Below, one piece after another: positions 9,742 through 20,667 of a stretch of 23,727 nucleotides of DNA. The DNA is from a virus, in the IMG/VR virus record IMGVR_UViG_3300025483_000076, positions 1 through 23,727 of that record; one strand, given 5' to 3'. The notes under the pieces were generated by a model. The model made no database searches and had not been told where the DNA came from. It saw only the letters and a program-made list of their open reading frames with translations. How positions within the stretch are numbered: the stretch's first letter is position 1; every line of letters begins with the position of its first letter. A program made the position numbers and the translations under genes.

Positions 9742-10929
9742 CTATTTCTTCTTATACTTATTTATGAAATTTTTAATCTCCTTTGTACCTGTCATTCTCA
9801 TTACATATTTTCTATGAGCATCTGTTCCGACAAGTCTTTCATCAGCAGAGACTCCAGAAGGTCCAGAATAATTTTCAACTTTTTCATTTACATCATGAAT
9901 CCAAGATTTAAACATAATATTATCCTCAGTTACACAAATCAAATAATTAGTACCTCTACGAATAACTTCACCAACTAAACCACTATTAAGGTTTTCAACA
10001 ATATCACCAACTTTAAAAATTGCTTTTGAAATATAATTTTCTCTTAAATTTTTCCAGTCAAATTTTGGAGCAATCTCCCAAACGTTAAATCCTTCCTCAA
10101 CTTTCATTTTCTTTCTTAAAGTCATATAGAGTTTCCTCGCAGACTTATCATCCAAAGTTTTAGGAACACCTACACGGAAAGATGCAAAGTCACCTTCTGC
10201 TGCAGATTTTCTCAATTTTGAAGCAGACATTCCACTAACATCATCAGCATCTGGATCTCTCTCACCCGCAGAAACTACATTCAAATCTGCAAAATCATAC
10301 AGTTCTCCATTATATTTCCCTGCAAGTTTTTCAAACTCTGATTGTCGATCAGAACCAACAACAATATTAACACCTGAATACCCATCAGCATGTGCTTGCT
10401 TTAGAACATCAAAGATGGTTCTTGATCCTGCATCATTTACAATTCGCTCACTGTGCTTTGGATACATCTGACGCATGACAGAAATTTTAGTATCAGGATC
10501 TAAAGGATTCTTCTTAGGATCTTCAGATCTTGATGGATAAATTTTATACTCACCTTTACCAGCAACATTGGATACTGCATCTAATAATTTTTCATGTCCT
10601 GTTGTTGGTGGATTAAATCTACCAAATGCAATAGTAAGTGTTCCCTTATCTTCTACCTTATCTTCTTCAGGTGGTTCTTTCGTTGGAGGATTAACCTGAG
10701 TAGCAACTGGTTGCTGATCTGCCTGGGTTCTATCCTGAGGAGGATCTTGCTTTCCAATTCTCTGATTCTTATTATAAAATTTTAACTTACCACCTTCAGT
10801 CTTTGCTACAAACTCGCCATTTTTATCGTACCATCCACCATGCCCATCTCCAGTCAAACCAAGACGGGTAGCTTGCATAACAGCAAGAGATGTACTTACT
10901 TCTGAAAGGAATTTCGAAAAACTTTTCAT
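9742..10929 (-). CDS. Nucleotidyltransferase-like late protein with extra N- and C-terminal domains (395 aa)
   Basis: The central domain (about 97-250) has the cytidylyltransferase/NMNAT-type fold signature: TIAFGRFNPPTTGH at 99-112 (the TTGH stands where HxGH is usual), VGSDRQ at 191-196 and GMSASKLR at 233-240 in place of ISSTxxR. These enzymes join a nucleotide to a phosphorylated partner; the substrate cannot be read from sequence. The N-terminus (DGHGGWYDKNGEF then GKLKFYNKNQ) and a Pro/Gln-rich linker precede it. After it comes a small SH3/KOW-like piece (VGDIVENLNSGLVGEVIRRG, about 306-325). It lies among late, virion-type genes with a late box upstream, so it may be a virion component rather than a metabolic enzyme. 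Confidence 0.88.
   Translation of the reverse strand: MKSFSKFLSEVSTSLAVMQATRLGLTGDGHGGWYDKNGEFVAKTEGGKLKFYNKNQRIGKQDPPQDRTQADQQPVATQVNPPTKEPPEEDKVEDKGTLTIAFGRFNPPTTGHEKLLDAVSNVAGKGEYKIYPSRSEDPKKNPLDPDTKISVMRQMYPKHSERIVNDAGSRTIFDVLKQAHADGYSGVNIVVGSDRQSEFEKLAGKYNGELYDFADLNVVSAGERDPDADDVSGMSASKLRKSAAEGDFASFRVGVPKTLDDKSARKLYMTLRKKMKVEEGFNVWEIAPKFDWKNLRENYISKAIFKVGDIVENLNSGLVGEVIRRGTNYLICVTEDNIMFKSWIHDVNEKVENYSGPSGVSADERLVGTDAHRKYVMRMTGTKEIKNFINKYKKK
9759..9766 (-). promoter_or_regulatory. T4-type late promoter box (CATAAATA)
   Basis: CATAAATA on the minus strand lies 30 bases upstream of ATG 9728, inside the last codons of the nucleotidyltransferase gene. Confidence 0.6.
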
Positions 10930-17298: not shown

Positions 17299-19794
17299 CT
17301 AACTAAAAAACGAATCAAGAGTCACTTTCTTTTCAGATTCCCAACCAATCGCATTTAGAATAACTTTAACTGGTTCAAGAAACCCCTTTTCAAATTGAAG
17401 TTGATAGTCAACATACATCTCAATTCCGAGTTCCTTAGGAAATTCTTGAATGAAAGAAATTACATTCTCATAAATTAAGTTTGGTTTCTTAAGATAGCAA
17501 AACTTAATTTTTTCTCCATTCTGAATAAGTGAGTACTTGTTTGTCAATTTCTTTTCTTTTATGTAGTGATTAAAAAGAAGGGCACCACGGCAATGAATTG
17601 GAGTACCCTTTGCATAAATGCTAGAAGAAGATTGATACTTAGTGACATTAGATACTGATCTTGGAAAGGCAATTTCTTCTGGGGGAAGTTTTGAGAAATC
17701 ATCCCTACATTTATTAATGAAGTTGATAATATCATCCTCACTACCATTCATCATAAGTTTTAGAGCATCCTTAATCATTTTACGACAAGGTGCGGGTGTT
17801 GATGATTTAACTGCTTCAATACCCATGATCTTGAGTTTGGGTTCAGAATAACGAACACCTTCACTATCCCAAACATTCATGATGTAACGCTTCTTGGCAG
17901 TCCAAATACCACGATCAGCAATGTTCTCACGCTTCATGATCATCTTCTGATCATAAGCATTCATGTAGTCGGCCAATTCTTGGTAAGAACTTTCAATATA
18001 CTTTTCAAGTTCCACTTGAGAGACCTTATCAAGGAAATTGACAATGCTCTCAGTAGTTTTCTCTCTTCCTTCGTATACACGGTTAACAAGAGGACCCATA
18101 TGCAAATAGATAGAATCAGTATCAGAAGCAATAACATAATCAACACTCTCAGTTTTAAGAATCTTATTCATGTAAGAATTTAATTTTTCTTCAATCCAAC
18201 GGATTGCAACTTGACCAGAAAGCGTGATTGCCTCAGCGTTTTCTAGTTTGTAATAACGGAAATATTGATTACCAATAGCACCATAAGCAGAGTTGAGAGA
18301 AATCTTCTTCGCCATTTGAATGTTGTTGCATCTAGAAATCTCCTTTTCAAGTGCTTTAGTAGGCGTCTTCTGATACTCTTGCTTGGCAGCAATCATTTTT
18401 TTCTTGAAGATAACACGATCTCCATACATCTTCTCCATCAATTCTGGAAGAATTCCACGGATATCTTTACGGTACATTGCTCCGTTTGGACACACAGCAT
18501 AATCCTTATAATTTTCAAGAGAGATTTCTTTATTAAGGATCTTATCCACAGAAACATTAGGACATCTTTCATCAACCAATGTTTCAGGACTGATGTTTGA
18601 TTGCATAATCAAGTGTGGATATAGAGAGTTTAAGTCAAAGTTTACAATCCAATCATAAACTCCAGGAACTGGTTCTTTAACATATGCACCAGCATACTTG
18701 TCATTTTTTTCAGACCTATCCTTCTGAGGAATAACTACGTCCCTCTTCTTTAGATAATTGTAGATGATGTTATCCCACATCCGTACCTGATAGAAGACAT
18801 CGACAAAGTTGACTTTAGCATCAAACGCCATAGTAAGAGCCAACTCAATGAGTTTCATCTTATCCTCAAGACGATCAACAAGTTCTACGTCAACAATGTT
18901 ATATTCAACAAATTTTTGCCAACCTTTAGTATAGAAGTCTTTGAAAGTATCAAACTCAGAGTGATCTAACTTTTTTTGACCCAGTTCCACTGAGGCAATA
19001 TGATCCAATCTGTAAGATTCTTGGGCAGAATAAGTAAACTTTTTATACAGATCAAGATAATCAAGTTGAGTAAGTCCACCAACATCGAAACAAATTTGTT
19101 GGCGGTTATTAACCCACACTTCATCTTGAGTAACTAGACCCCAAGGAGAGAAACTTTTCATACGTTTCTCACCAAGAACTCTTGCCAATCTTCCACAAAT
19201 ATATGGAATATCATAAAACTGAATATTCCAACCAGTCACTACATCAGGAAGATTCTGTTCCCAGTAATAAAGAAATTTATTAAGAAGATCATACTCAGAA
19301 GAACACTCAATGAAAGTAACATTCTTCTGAGTATTATTAAATGGGCGGGTTCCCCAAGTAATAATATTCTTGGTAAAATAGTCTTGAATAGTAATCAACA
19401 AAATTTCCTGATCGCATGACTGTGGATCAGGGAATCCATTCTCAGAAGCAACCTCAATATCAAGAGTGGTCAGTCTAATCTTATTAACATCAAACTTAAT
19501 TTCATCTTCAGGATACTTATCAGAAATATATTGATAGACATATCTATCATTACCATAGATTTTAAATCCTTCTACGCCATCATATTTTTTATAAAATTCT
19601 CTACAATCTCTAACAGATCCAGGATTTATTGGTTCAACAGATTTACCCTCAAGAGTTTTATATTTTGAATTTTTATTTGACTTTACAAAAAGAGTAGGAG
19701 AATACTCTTCTTTAAACATTATATGCTTACCATTTTCATAACCACGAACGAGAAACTTGTTCCCGATCATTTGCACATTGGTATAAAATCTCAT
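17299..19794 (-). CDS. 43: T4 gp43-like family B DNA polymerase
   Basis: Replicative DNA polymerase with 3'-5' proofreading. Exo I carries Asp112/Glu114 (TLDIEVA), Exo II is WNIQFYD (Asp195), Exo III is YNIVD (298-302). Polymerase motif A is FDLNSLYP with Asp387, motif B is KKISLNSAYG (about 496-505), motif C is ASDTDS with Asp558 and Asp560. The extreme C-terminus VTLDSFFS resembles the clamp-binding tail of T4/RB69 gp43. At 831 residues it is shorter than RB69 gp43 (about 900), mainly in the N-terminal and linker parts. ATG 19794 overlaps the preceding stop (ATGA). Confidence 0.97.
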   Translation of the reverse strand: MRFYTNVQMIGNKFLVRGYENGKHIMFKEEYSPTLFVKSNKNSKYKTLEGKSVEPINPGSVRDCREFYKKYDGVEGFKIYGNDRYVYQYISDKYPEDEIKFDVNKIRLTTLDIEVASENGFPDPQSCDQEILLITIQDYFTKNIITWGTRPFNNTQKNVTFIECSSEYDLLNKFLYYWEQNLPDVVTGWNIQFYDIPYICGRLARVLGEKRMKSFSPWGLVTQDEVWVNNRQQICFDVGGLTQLDYLDLYKKFTYSAQESYRLDHIASVELGQKKLDHSEFDTFKDFYTKGWQKFVEYNIVDVELVDRLEDKMKLIELALTMAFDAKVNFVDVFYQVRMWDNIIYNYLKKRDVVIPQKDRSEKNDKYAGAYVKEPVPGVYDWIVNFDLNSLYPHLIMQSNISPETLVDERCPNVSVDKILNKEISLENYKDYAVCPNGAMYRKDIRGILPELMEKMYGDRVIFKKKMIAAKQEYQKTPTKALEKEISRCNNIQMAKKISLNSAYGAIGNQYFRYYKLENAEAITLSGQVAIRWIEEKLNSYMNKILKTESVDYVIASDTDSIYLHMGPLVNRVYEGREKTTESIVNFLDKVSQVELEKYIESSYQELADYMNAYDQKMIMKRENIADRGIWTAKKRYIMNVWDSEGVRYSEPKLKIMGIEAVKSSTPAPCRKMIKDALKLMMNGSEDDIINFINKCRDDFSKLPPEEIAFPRSVSNVTKYQSSSSIYAKGTPIHCRGALLFNHYIKEKKLTNKYSLIQNGEKIKFCYLKKPNLIYENVISFIQEFPKELGIEMYVDYQLQFEKGFLEPVKVILNAIGWESEKKVTLDSFFS

Positions 19795-20060
19795 TTAATT
19801 AATGTTTGATATTTTTCAAGCAGTGTTGGTTTTGGGTCAATAATAGTCAGAATTTTATCGGAGTGGATCATAAACTCATCTTGCATAGTTTCATCCATTA
19901 ACCAGGGTTCTAACTCATGACCAATACCTTCACTATAAGATTTGAGAAGAAATGGACTTTTCATTTTGCAATCGGGCTCACCCAATTCAGAAGTTACTTC
20001 TTCTATATTTGAAATAATTTTACTTCCGTCAGGAAGGAGTAAGACTTTAATATTATCCAT
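19791..20060 (-). CDS. Sm-like candidate protein, second of a pair (89 aa)
   Basis: A small beta-rich protein with the layout: first strand pair (IKVLLLPDGSKIISNIEEVT), a short strand ending in Pro (KMKSPFLLKSY), then PWLMDETMQDEFMIHSDKIL and a final DPKPTLLEKYQ helix. This matches an Sm/LSm-type fold in order and spacing. I recall a structural-genomics report of a Sm-like protein of putative cyanophage origin, so the call is plausible, but it is not proven. It is linked to both neighbours by stop/start overlaps and lies directly before the polymerase. Confidence 0.7.
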   Translation of the reverse strand: MDNIKVLLLPDGSKIISNIEEVTSELGEPDCKMKSPFLLKSYSEGIGHELEPWLMDETMQDEFMIHSDKILTIIDPKPTLLEKYQTLIK

Positions 20061-20488
20061 TAGTTTCTACAATCCTTACATTCATAATCATCTTCCGAAT
20101 CCGTAGATTGAACAGCGTCATCATATTCTTCCAATGGACGGTTCATTCCTTCATTCCAATCACGGGTCGAATTAATAACGTCATTCTCATACATTTCCCG
20201 TAGCATGTCAACGGGATCTGTAAATGTCACAACCCAATCAGATACAACTGGAACCTTTGTCCCCTTTGCAAGTGGAATCCATGGATATAGACTAATATTA
20301 AAGGAGGTTGTTCCTGGAGCCATTTGAGTTGGACCTTGTGAAGGTCCACCCTCACCCTCTGGATTAATAATGTTAACCAAACATGGTTTATAAAAATAAT
20401 ATCCAGCAAGTTGATTATCAACAACCATTTCCTGGATATCAGCAATAACAAACTGTCCAGTTTTGATCAATGCAATCTTAATCGACAT
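20060..20488 (-). CDS. Sm-like candidate protein, first of a pair (142 aa)
   Basis: The first gene of the replication transcript. The N-terminal part (IKIALIKTGQFVIADIQEMV, YYFYKPCLVNI) and the core (FNISLYPWIPLAKGTKVPVV, WVVTFTDPVDMLREMYEND) repeat the layout of the 89-residue neighbour: strand pair with xxGxxhhxxIxE, a Pro-centred strand, a PW strand, and a DP-helix. An extra loop (EGEGGPSQGPTQ) and an acidic tail ending YECKDCRN, with two Cys, are added. Sm-like RNA binding is an inference. GGAG lies 5 bases before ATG 20488, and a strong sigma70 promoter is 22 bases further upstream. Confidence 0.75.
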   Translation of the reverse strand: MSIKIALIKTGQFVIADIQEMVVDNQLAGYYFYKPCLVNIINPEGEGGPSQGPTQMAPGTTSFNISLYPWIPLAKGTKVPVVSDWVVTFTDPVDMLREMYENDVINSTRDWNEGMNRPLEEYDDAVQSTDSEDDYECKDCRN

Positions 20489-20509
20489 AGTTTCTCCAAT
20501 CGTAAAAAT

Positions 20510-20538
20510 AGTATACCAACAAAAAAGAGGGGTGTCAA
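20510..20538 (-). promoter_or_regulatory. Sigma70-type promoter of the replication block
   Basis: On the minus strand a perfect TTGACA (20538-20533), 17-base spacer and TATACT (20515-20510), matching the host sigma70 consensus at 11 of 12 positions. The predicted start is near 20503, about 15 bases before ATG 20488. It is the only near-consensus early promoter I found in the window. Confidence 0.8.
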
Positions 20539-20561
20539 CTGGATTTTGCCAGTTCCCCCTC
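20521..20561 (-). terminator. Intrinsic terminator overlapping the early promoter
   Basis: Minus strand: GAGGGG (20561-20556) pairs with CCCCTC (20532-20527), and AACTGG (20554-20549) with CCAGTT (20542-20537), around a CAAAAT loop, followed by TTTTTT (20526-20521). The 3' arm contains part of the TTGACA -35 box, and the U-tract lies in the promoter spacer. It would end transcription coming from purM. Confidence 0.7.
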
Positions 20562-20589: not shown

Positions 20590-20667
20590 TTATTCAGTTT
20601 TAGGTGTCATCCAATATGCTCCGAATGATGTTGCTGAGATTGCTGCGATGATTGCTAGAATTTCCAT
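20590..20667 (-). CDS. Candidate tiny hydrophobic ORF (25 aa)
   Basis: ATG 20667 to TAA 20590. It starts MEILAIIAAISATS, passes through FGAYW and ends MTPKTE, which is one short hydrophobic segment with a charged tail. No good Shine-Dalgarno is visible. It is inside the 360-base gap between purM and the replication promoter. Real only if conserved in related phages. Confidence 0.4.
   Translation of the reverse strand: MEILAIIAAISATSFGAYWMTPKTE

Follow-up and report, generated by a model that had tools for sequence, protein, structure and literature searches.

A late small RNA predicted in hundreds of cyanobacterial viruses from oceans and lakes may act on the host ribosome

The window analysed here is the whole of a 23.7-kb virus record (23,727 nt), in which the relevant genes are encoded on the minus strand. 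Its purM, gp43, uvsX, helicase and mazG genes identify the source as a T4-like cyanophage. Two tiny ORFs separate purM from the junction considered here, and the ORF list includes a 25-aa reading frame (20590-20667, minus) whose stop codon lies inside a late promoter. On the other side of the junction, an early unit begins with a phrog_431 gene of unassigned function (20060-20488, minus), followed by the gene for a DUF6561/phrog_483 protein (19791-20060, minus) and by gp43, which encodes DNA polymerase (17299-19794, minus). The two adjacent genes just upstream of gp43 (19791-20488) are related, each matching both the phrog_431 and the phrog_483/DUF6561 profiles.

At the junction, a terminator hairpin and an early promoter occupy the same bases. 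The hairpin (20561-20527, minus) has a two-part stem with an internal loop, consisting of outer arms GAGGGG/CCCCTC, an inner stem AACTGG/CCAGTT and the loop CAAAAT. It is supported by RNA folding (-21.3 kcal/mol, z -2.3) and by compensatory changes in the outer stem of related sequences. A U-tract of six T residues follows (20526-20521, minus). The -35 element TTGACA (20538-20533, minus) is located in the 3' half of the hairpin, where its TT forms the closing-pair side of the inner stem and the remainder sits in the internal loop preceding the outer 3' arm. After a 17-nt spacer comes the extended -10 element TGGTATACT (20518-20510, minus), recognized by sequence and conservation, with TG at 20518-20517, TATACT at 20515-20510 and a predicted start near 20503. 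The original prediction that an intrinsic terminator shares bases with TTGACA-17-TATACT, with part of the -35 in the stem and the U-tract within the 17-base spacer, is thereby confirmed on the minus strand. At the DNA level the arrangement is compact, as the terminator of the predicted late RNA, the early -35 and the early spacer are three signals in the same bases. A generic terminator scan missed the hairpin because of its internal loop. Between positions 10000 and 23727, three promoters match at 11/12 positions and only the one at the junction has an extended -10, while at the loose 9-of-12 level the same scan returned 54 sites against 46.9 expected. When the whole window was shuffled 200 times with dinucleotides preserved, promoters of equal quality with TG and a 17-nt spacer arose at 0.025 per shuffle, and none of the shuffles placed a T5 run in a promoter spacer, let alone one with a preceding hairpin.

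This junction is only the right half of a larger conserved unit. Upstream of the hairpin lies the late promoter AATAAATA (20594-20587, minus), which matches the gp55-type motif NATAAATA and stands 5 nt before a 15-nt box, GAATATCGTCGTCGC (20581-20567, minus). The box is nearly invariant, is antisense to host 5S rRNA, and constitutes the predicted 5' end of a late RNA (+1 = 20581). Box, hairpin and U-tract together form a predicted late small RNA of 61 nt (20581-20521, minus), supported by its anatomy and by a covariance model termed R1. A separate observation concerns the TAA stop codon of the upstream gene, which is embedded in the late promoter (..TAAATA) at 20590-20592 of the window and in most related loci. 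It recurs although the upstream families differ, comprising hsp20-like proteins, glycine-rich short proteins and others.

Across T4-like cyanophages the constant unit consists of the late promoter NATAAATA, 5 nt, the box GAATATCGTCG(G/C/T)CGC, a covarying hairpin and a U-tract. The 152 instances collected give predicted RNAs mostly of 53-67 nt with a median fold of -20.8 kcal/mol, and the region from the late start to the terminator is the most conserved part. The motif NATAAATA or NCTAAATA is found exactly 5 nt before the box in 130 of 146 instances, and in 37 of the 44 elements that were retrieved by means other than the box. From this spacing, the RNA would begin (+1) with the first box nucleotide. 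In T4, late TATA boxes precede the start by roughly one helical turn (PMC2988020); here, the T4-type motif NATAAATA and its fixed spacing to the box are present, and the start is a predicted one. Since many loci are related to one another and were retrieved with the exact box as query, its invariance is to be judged on the 44 other elements, 35 of which carry one of the three main box forms while nine differ. The distance from the box to the -35 (TTGAC) ranges from 37 to 50 nt over the 152 instances, a variability which ties the box to the late start and not to the early promoter. The U-tract is present in 150 of these 152; TTGAC is retained within the hairpin in 129, the 17-nt spacer in 126 and TG in 121. 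Compensatory changes in the outer stem were scored in 65 sequences, where one position pairs as G-C in 39 and as A-T in 26, and a second as G-C in 31, A-T in 28, G-T in 3 and C-G in 2, while the -35 bases in the hairpin hinge stay unchanged. The box itself is predicted to be unpaired in the RNA (median probability 0.89). A coding leader was rejected, as the stretch from box to hairpin has no start codon. Like a phage trans-acting sRNA, the unit has its own (late) promoter and an intrinsic terminator, and it contains no ORF. Taken together, the fixed late-promoter spacing, the terminator that follows directly, the unpaired 5' box and the covariation in the hairpin point to a late small RNA.

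The element is widely distributed. Using the junction as query, blastn matched 314 phage records, nearly all of them cyanophages, over about 85 bp and in differing gene neighbourhoods; with the element as query it matched 302 phage records, 4 of them with Prochlorococcus names (a lower bound). Related gp43 records comprised 376 named for Synechococcus, 61 for Cyanophage and 24 for Prochlorococcus, all as lower bounds. In one type of neighbourhood, the element precedes the phrog_431/DUF6561/gp43 unit and follows hsp20 or other genes, and in a second it precedes gp213 or gp214-psbA-psbD and follows hli/gp212 genes. The gene after the element is usually phrog_431-like, and about 50 IMG/VR contigs show the same architecture ahead of their phrog_431 gene. 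Scanning with the exact box recovered at least 120 stretches, most of them genuine elements with a late promoter before the box. The covariance model, whose calibration is rough, gave a single strong match in each of 16 genomes out of 21 records, namely Syn9 (DQ149023, 164132-164185), S-PM2 (AJ630128, 124971-125027), S-RSM4 and 13 others, and the exact box pattern gave one hit each in 17 of 19 genomes. Two simple accounts of this distribution were rejected, namely a cassette repeated within the genome, since each genome has one copy, and an orthologous position as the sole explanation, since the neighbours differ. No R1 match was obtained in the remaining five records (P-SSM2, P-SSM4, P-HM1, P-HM2 and T4). 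The element is absent from P-SSM2, P-SSM4, P-HM1 and P-HM2 by every search made, and is thus not universal in cyanomyoviruses. By contrast with these other Prochlorococcus phages, P-SSM7 has a blastn match to the element.

The relatives also bear on the function of the overlap. Stem and -35/-10 are conserved together at the junction of most related phages, but the early promoter is absent in three genomes. The S-PM2 unit comes after an hli gene and is convergent with the next gene; the Syn9 U-tract continues into the start codon of gp213; and S-RSM4 keeps the late promoter, box and terminator. By sequence comparison, the constant part is the predicted RNA unit, and the early promoter is optional. 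The original prediction further proposed that a polymerase arriving from purM would stop at this site and that the overlap could insulate the two units. The terminator is indeed genuine and conserved, but a late promoter lies about 60 bp upstream of its end, so an origin in purM is unnecessary. The overlap does separate the upstream unit from phrog_431-DUF6561-gp43, but this is not its common function, since S-PM2 has no same-strand gene after the unit. Simple insulation as the whole explanation was rejected, because the unit persists in S-PM2, Syn9 and S-RSM4, where no early promoter accompanies it. It is plausible, as a model, that a passing polymerase blocks early-promoter firing, with late transcription ending in the early spacer.

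The box is the reverse complement of picocyanobacterial 5S rRNA at GCG(G/C)CGACGATATT, over 14-15 contiguous bases. When eight picocyanobacterial genomes were searched for the box complement, seven hits were obtained. Six of these are in the 5S rRNA gene: four overlap an Rfam 5S call, and the other two, located where contigs end, show the same 5S sequence. In E. coli numbering, the target is approximately nt 67-80, which we take to be part of loop A, helix V and loop E of 5S rRNA. A complementary site is present in most of 91 5S sequences from the family of Synechococcus RCC307 and others. The corresponding stretch of these sequences has the forms GCGGCGACGATATTT (30), GCGGCGACGATAGTT (12), GCGCCGACGATATTT (8), GCGGCGAAGATATTT (8), GCGGCGAAAATATTT (7) and rarer ones; some genomes contributed several copies and the survey of the RCC307 family missed 28 of 101 genomes, which makes these host-variant frequencies rough. 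The box pairs with the commonest forms over 14-15 contiguous bases. At position 12 of the box the phages have G, C or T, opposite a C or G in the host. As T pairs with G by wobble, all three position-12 forms have a 5S partner. The G and C forms, when matched, give duplexes of -26.3 kcal/mol, and the T form of the window gives one of -23.6 kcal/mol; matched pairs overall fall between -22 and -26 kcal/mol, compared with -11.6 kcal/mol (sd 2.2) for shuffled boxes against 5S. The computed features thus include an unstructured, conserved seed complementary to its target, with matching variants on both sides. Anti-5S boxes directed at E. coli-type 5S were not found after late promoters in T4, where the best candidate had 3 mismatches, the same as a reversed control, nor after late promoters in IMG/VR.

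A prediction fixed before the scan stated that phages facing variant 5S would carry compensating boxes, and IMG/VR was searched for a late promoter followed by AATAT(C/T)TTCGNCG. The scan recovered genuine elements whose boxes are the complements of two variant 5S types, GCGGCGAAGATATT and GCGGCGAAAATATT. These compensating boxes are GAATATCTTCGCCGC, for example in loci L494, L497 and L516, and GAATATTTTCG(T/C)CGC, in L520 and L523. Control dinucleotides at the two varying positions behaved as follows. TG occurs in 8 elements and pairs through G-U, and AG occurs in 2 elements of one lineage (L530:2925 and L537:2290), whose box GAATATAGTCGGCGC mismatches all 5S types seen; this lineage represents either a host outside the 5S sample or an exception to the pairing model. 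AA, AC, AT, CA, CC, GC, GG, TA and TC gave 0 elements in 19 hits. The CA box, which is the complement of one rare 5S form, was accordingly absent from the IMG/VR scan, and P-SSM2, P-SSM4, P-HM1 and P-HM2 carry no compensating boxes. The match between box and 5S variants, which is one between populations rather than known phage-host pairs, suggests that the box changes in step with host 5S.

Anatomy, conservation, single copy number, stem covariation, 5S complementarity and matching phage and host variants were all computed, and the explanation that we consider probable on these grounds is a late antisense sRNA against host 5S rRNA, with a terminator that doubles as part of an early promoter. 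According to this model, T4-like cyanophages would have a conserved small-RNA gene, present once per genome, and the junction would be its 3' part. The late promoter would start an RNA of 53-67 nt (61 nt in the window), the first 15 nt of which would act as an unstructured anti-5S seed, and the intrinsic terminator would form its 3' end. Late in infection, the sRNA may form a duplex with 5S rRNA that is free or freshly synthesized, and so block the folding of this 5S, its maturation or its binding of proteins. A perfect duplex on 5S not yet in ribosomes could prevent native folding and protein binding or expose the molecule to nucleases, and the outcome would be less new 50S assembly or 5S marked for decay. 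Candidate benefits to the phage are reduced host ribosome building, nucleotide salvage or selective translation. We infer that the RNA is produced and pairs with 5S in cells, and the consequence for the ribosome is the least certain step. Access of the sRNA is uncertain too, given that 5S is highly structured and mostly within ribosomes. In most lineages, the terminator would also have acquired the -35 of an early promoter that serves the following unit (the replication genes in the window), and in lineages of the window type, late transcription ending in the early spacer could silence this promoter late in infection. The broader proposal leans only slightly towards acceptance; it describes a widespread viral RNA family that would act on the host ribosome through antisense 5S pairing and co-evolve with 5S, and whose terminator would also serve as an early promoter subject to shut-off by late transcription.

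Among the alternatives, the one that survives best, although unlikely, is an ordinary cassette of the PeSL (promoter-early stem-loop) type known from T4-type phages, which ends one unit and starts the next, with the box incidental or assisting. PeSLs are described in PMC4503421, in the text citing Arbiol 2010 and Comeau 2014, as dense in shuffled regions. The element resembles them, as seen through that citing paper, in fusing a stem-loop terminator to an early sigma-70-type promoter in a T4-like phage, both in the window and in 129 of 152 instances, and in its variable flanking genes, which would be expected of exchangeable cassettes and which gene order comparison confirms to vary between phages. 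It differs from the PeSLs of that account in several respects: there is one strong match per genome instead of many copies in hypervariable regions, the upstream late promoter and 5S-complementary box are obligatory, and an early promoter need not be present. S-PM2, Syn9 and S-RSM4, in which the late promoter, box and terminator persist but the early promoter does not, count against a PeSL origin, which also leaves the box and its match to 5S variants unexplained.

It is quite improbable that the unit acts in cis as a leader, with box and hairpin forming an attenuator in the late transcript whose readthrough is altered by 5S rRNA or another factor on the box. Such a leader would also use the 5S complementarity, and the box does immediately precede an intrinsic terminator, usually with a gene beyond it. 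The next gene in S-PM2 is convergent, however, which leaves nothing downstream to regulate; elsewhere the downstream genes belong to unrelated families, and the distance from box to hairpin is variable. Marginally more doubtful still is a DNA-level function, in which the box would be a protein-binding, replication or packaging site resembling 5S DNA by chance. Single copy number and the insertion of a NUMOD3-motif gene in some elements, which indicates that the sequence can serve as a DNA target, are in keeping with such a site, but the fixed 5-nt spacing to the late promoter, the terminator after it and the covarying RNA stem all favour RNA, and the box variants track those of host 5S. A switch based on transcriptional interference, close to the original proposal, in which late transcription through the -35 ends in the early spacer and shuts off the replication-gene promoter with the RNA as a by-product, fits the U-tract within the 17-nt spacer and is compatible with the antisense sRNA, but as the full account it is very improbable, as it needs neither the box nor its 5S match and is inapplicable where the early promoter is absent (S-PM2, Syn9, S-RSM4).

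The antisense sRNA explanation also has to be placed among known systems. Rfam release 15 gave no match in the window at gathering score and, in the region, one hit far below its gathering score, and a known RNA family was rejected on this ground. Phage base-pairing sRNAs such as lambda OOP, PreS and DicF, listed in PMC12197685, likewise are short RNAs with their own promoter, an intrinsic terminator and proposed base pairing; the targets noted from that review are mRNAs, whereas the predicted target here is host 5S rRNA. A precedent is chloroplast AS5, an antisense RNA to 5S rRNA in a cyanobacterium-derived system, whose overexpression lowers 5S stability and polysome association (PMC3017836). 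Unlike the element RNA, AS5 is cis-encoded in the rRNA operon, mostly longer (70-400 nt) and not viral (PMC3017836). CfrI of cyanophage S-PM2 (Millard 2010, as cited in PMC12197685 and PMC5931967) is also a non-coding RNA of a cyanomyovirus, but in these citing texts it is about 225 nt long and antisense to phage psbA, with a different locus and target. Passages retrieved by keyword from two S-PM2 RNA-seq papers make no mention of the predicted sRNA. Phage sRNAs are known, yet none directed at ribosomal RNA was found in the literature searched, and no report of a phage RNA antisense to 5S rRNA appeared in the searchable literature, which did not extend to the Syn9 transcriptome and the primary PeSL papers, so that earlier detection of the transcript is possible. 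If the antisense explanation is true, one of the most abundant groups of ocean viruses would carry an RNA that intervenes in ribosome assembly during late infection. The 15-nt seed of this RNA would then be a readable record of host 5S type, potentially linking uncultured phages to their hosts.

Several loci depart from the usual form of the element. A gene with a NUMOD3 motif, homing-endonuclease-like, lies inside the element in L015 (1285-2001) and also in L016-L019, L021 and L022 (compare L020). The upstream half retains the late promoter, box, hairpin and U-tract, the downstream half has a shorter hairpin and the early promoter, and each half is intact. The insertion splits the element so that its two functions are separated in nature. 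At L134:3654, a degenerate second element with the box GAATATCGTCACCAC and the inner hairpin, lacking a U-tract, is located about 1.1 kb from an intact copy. In L173, L216, L218 and L220, which are without the early promoter, the U-tract runs into an ATAAATA late-promoter motif before a different gene of about 240 aa.
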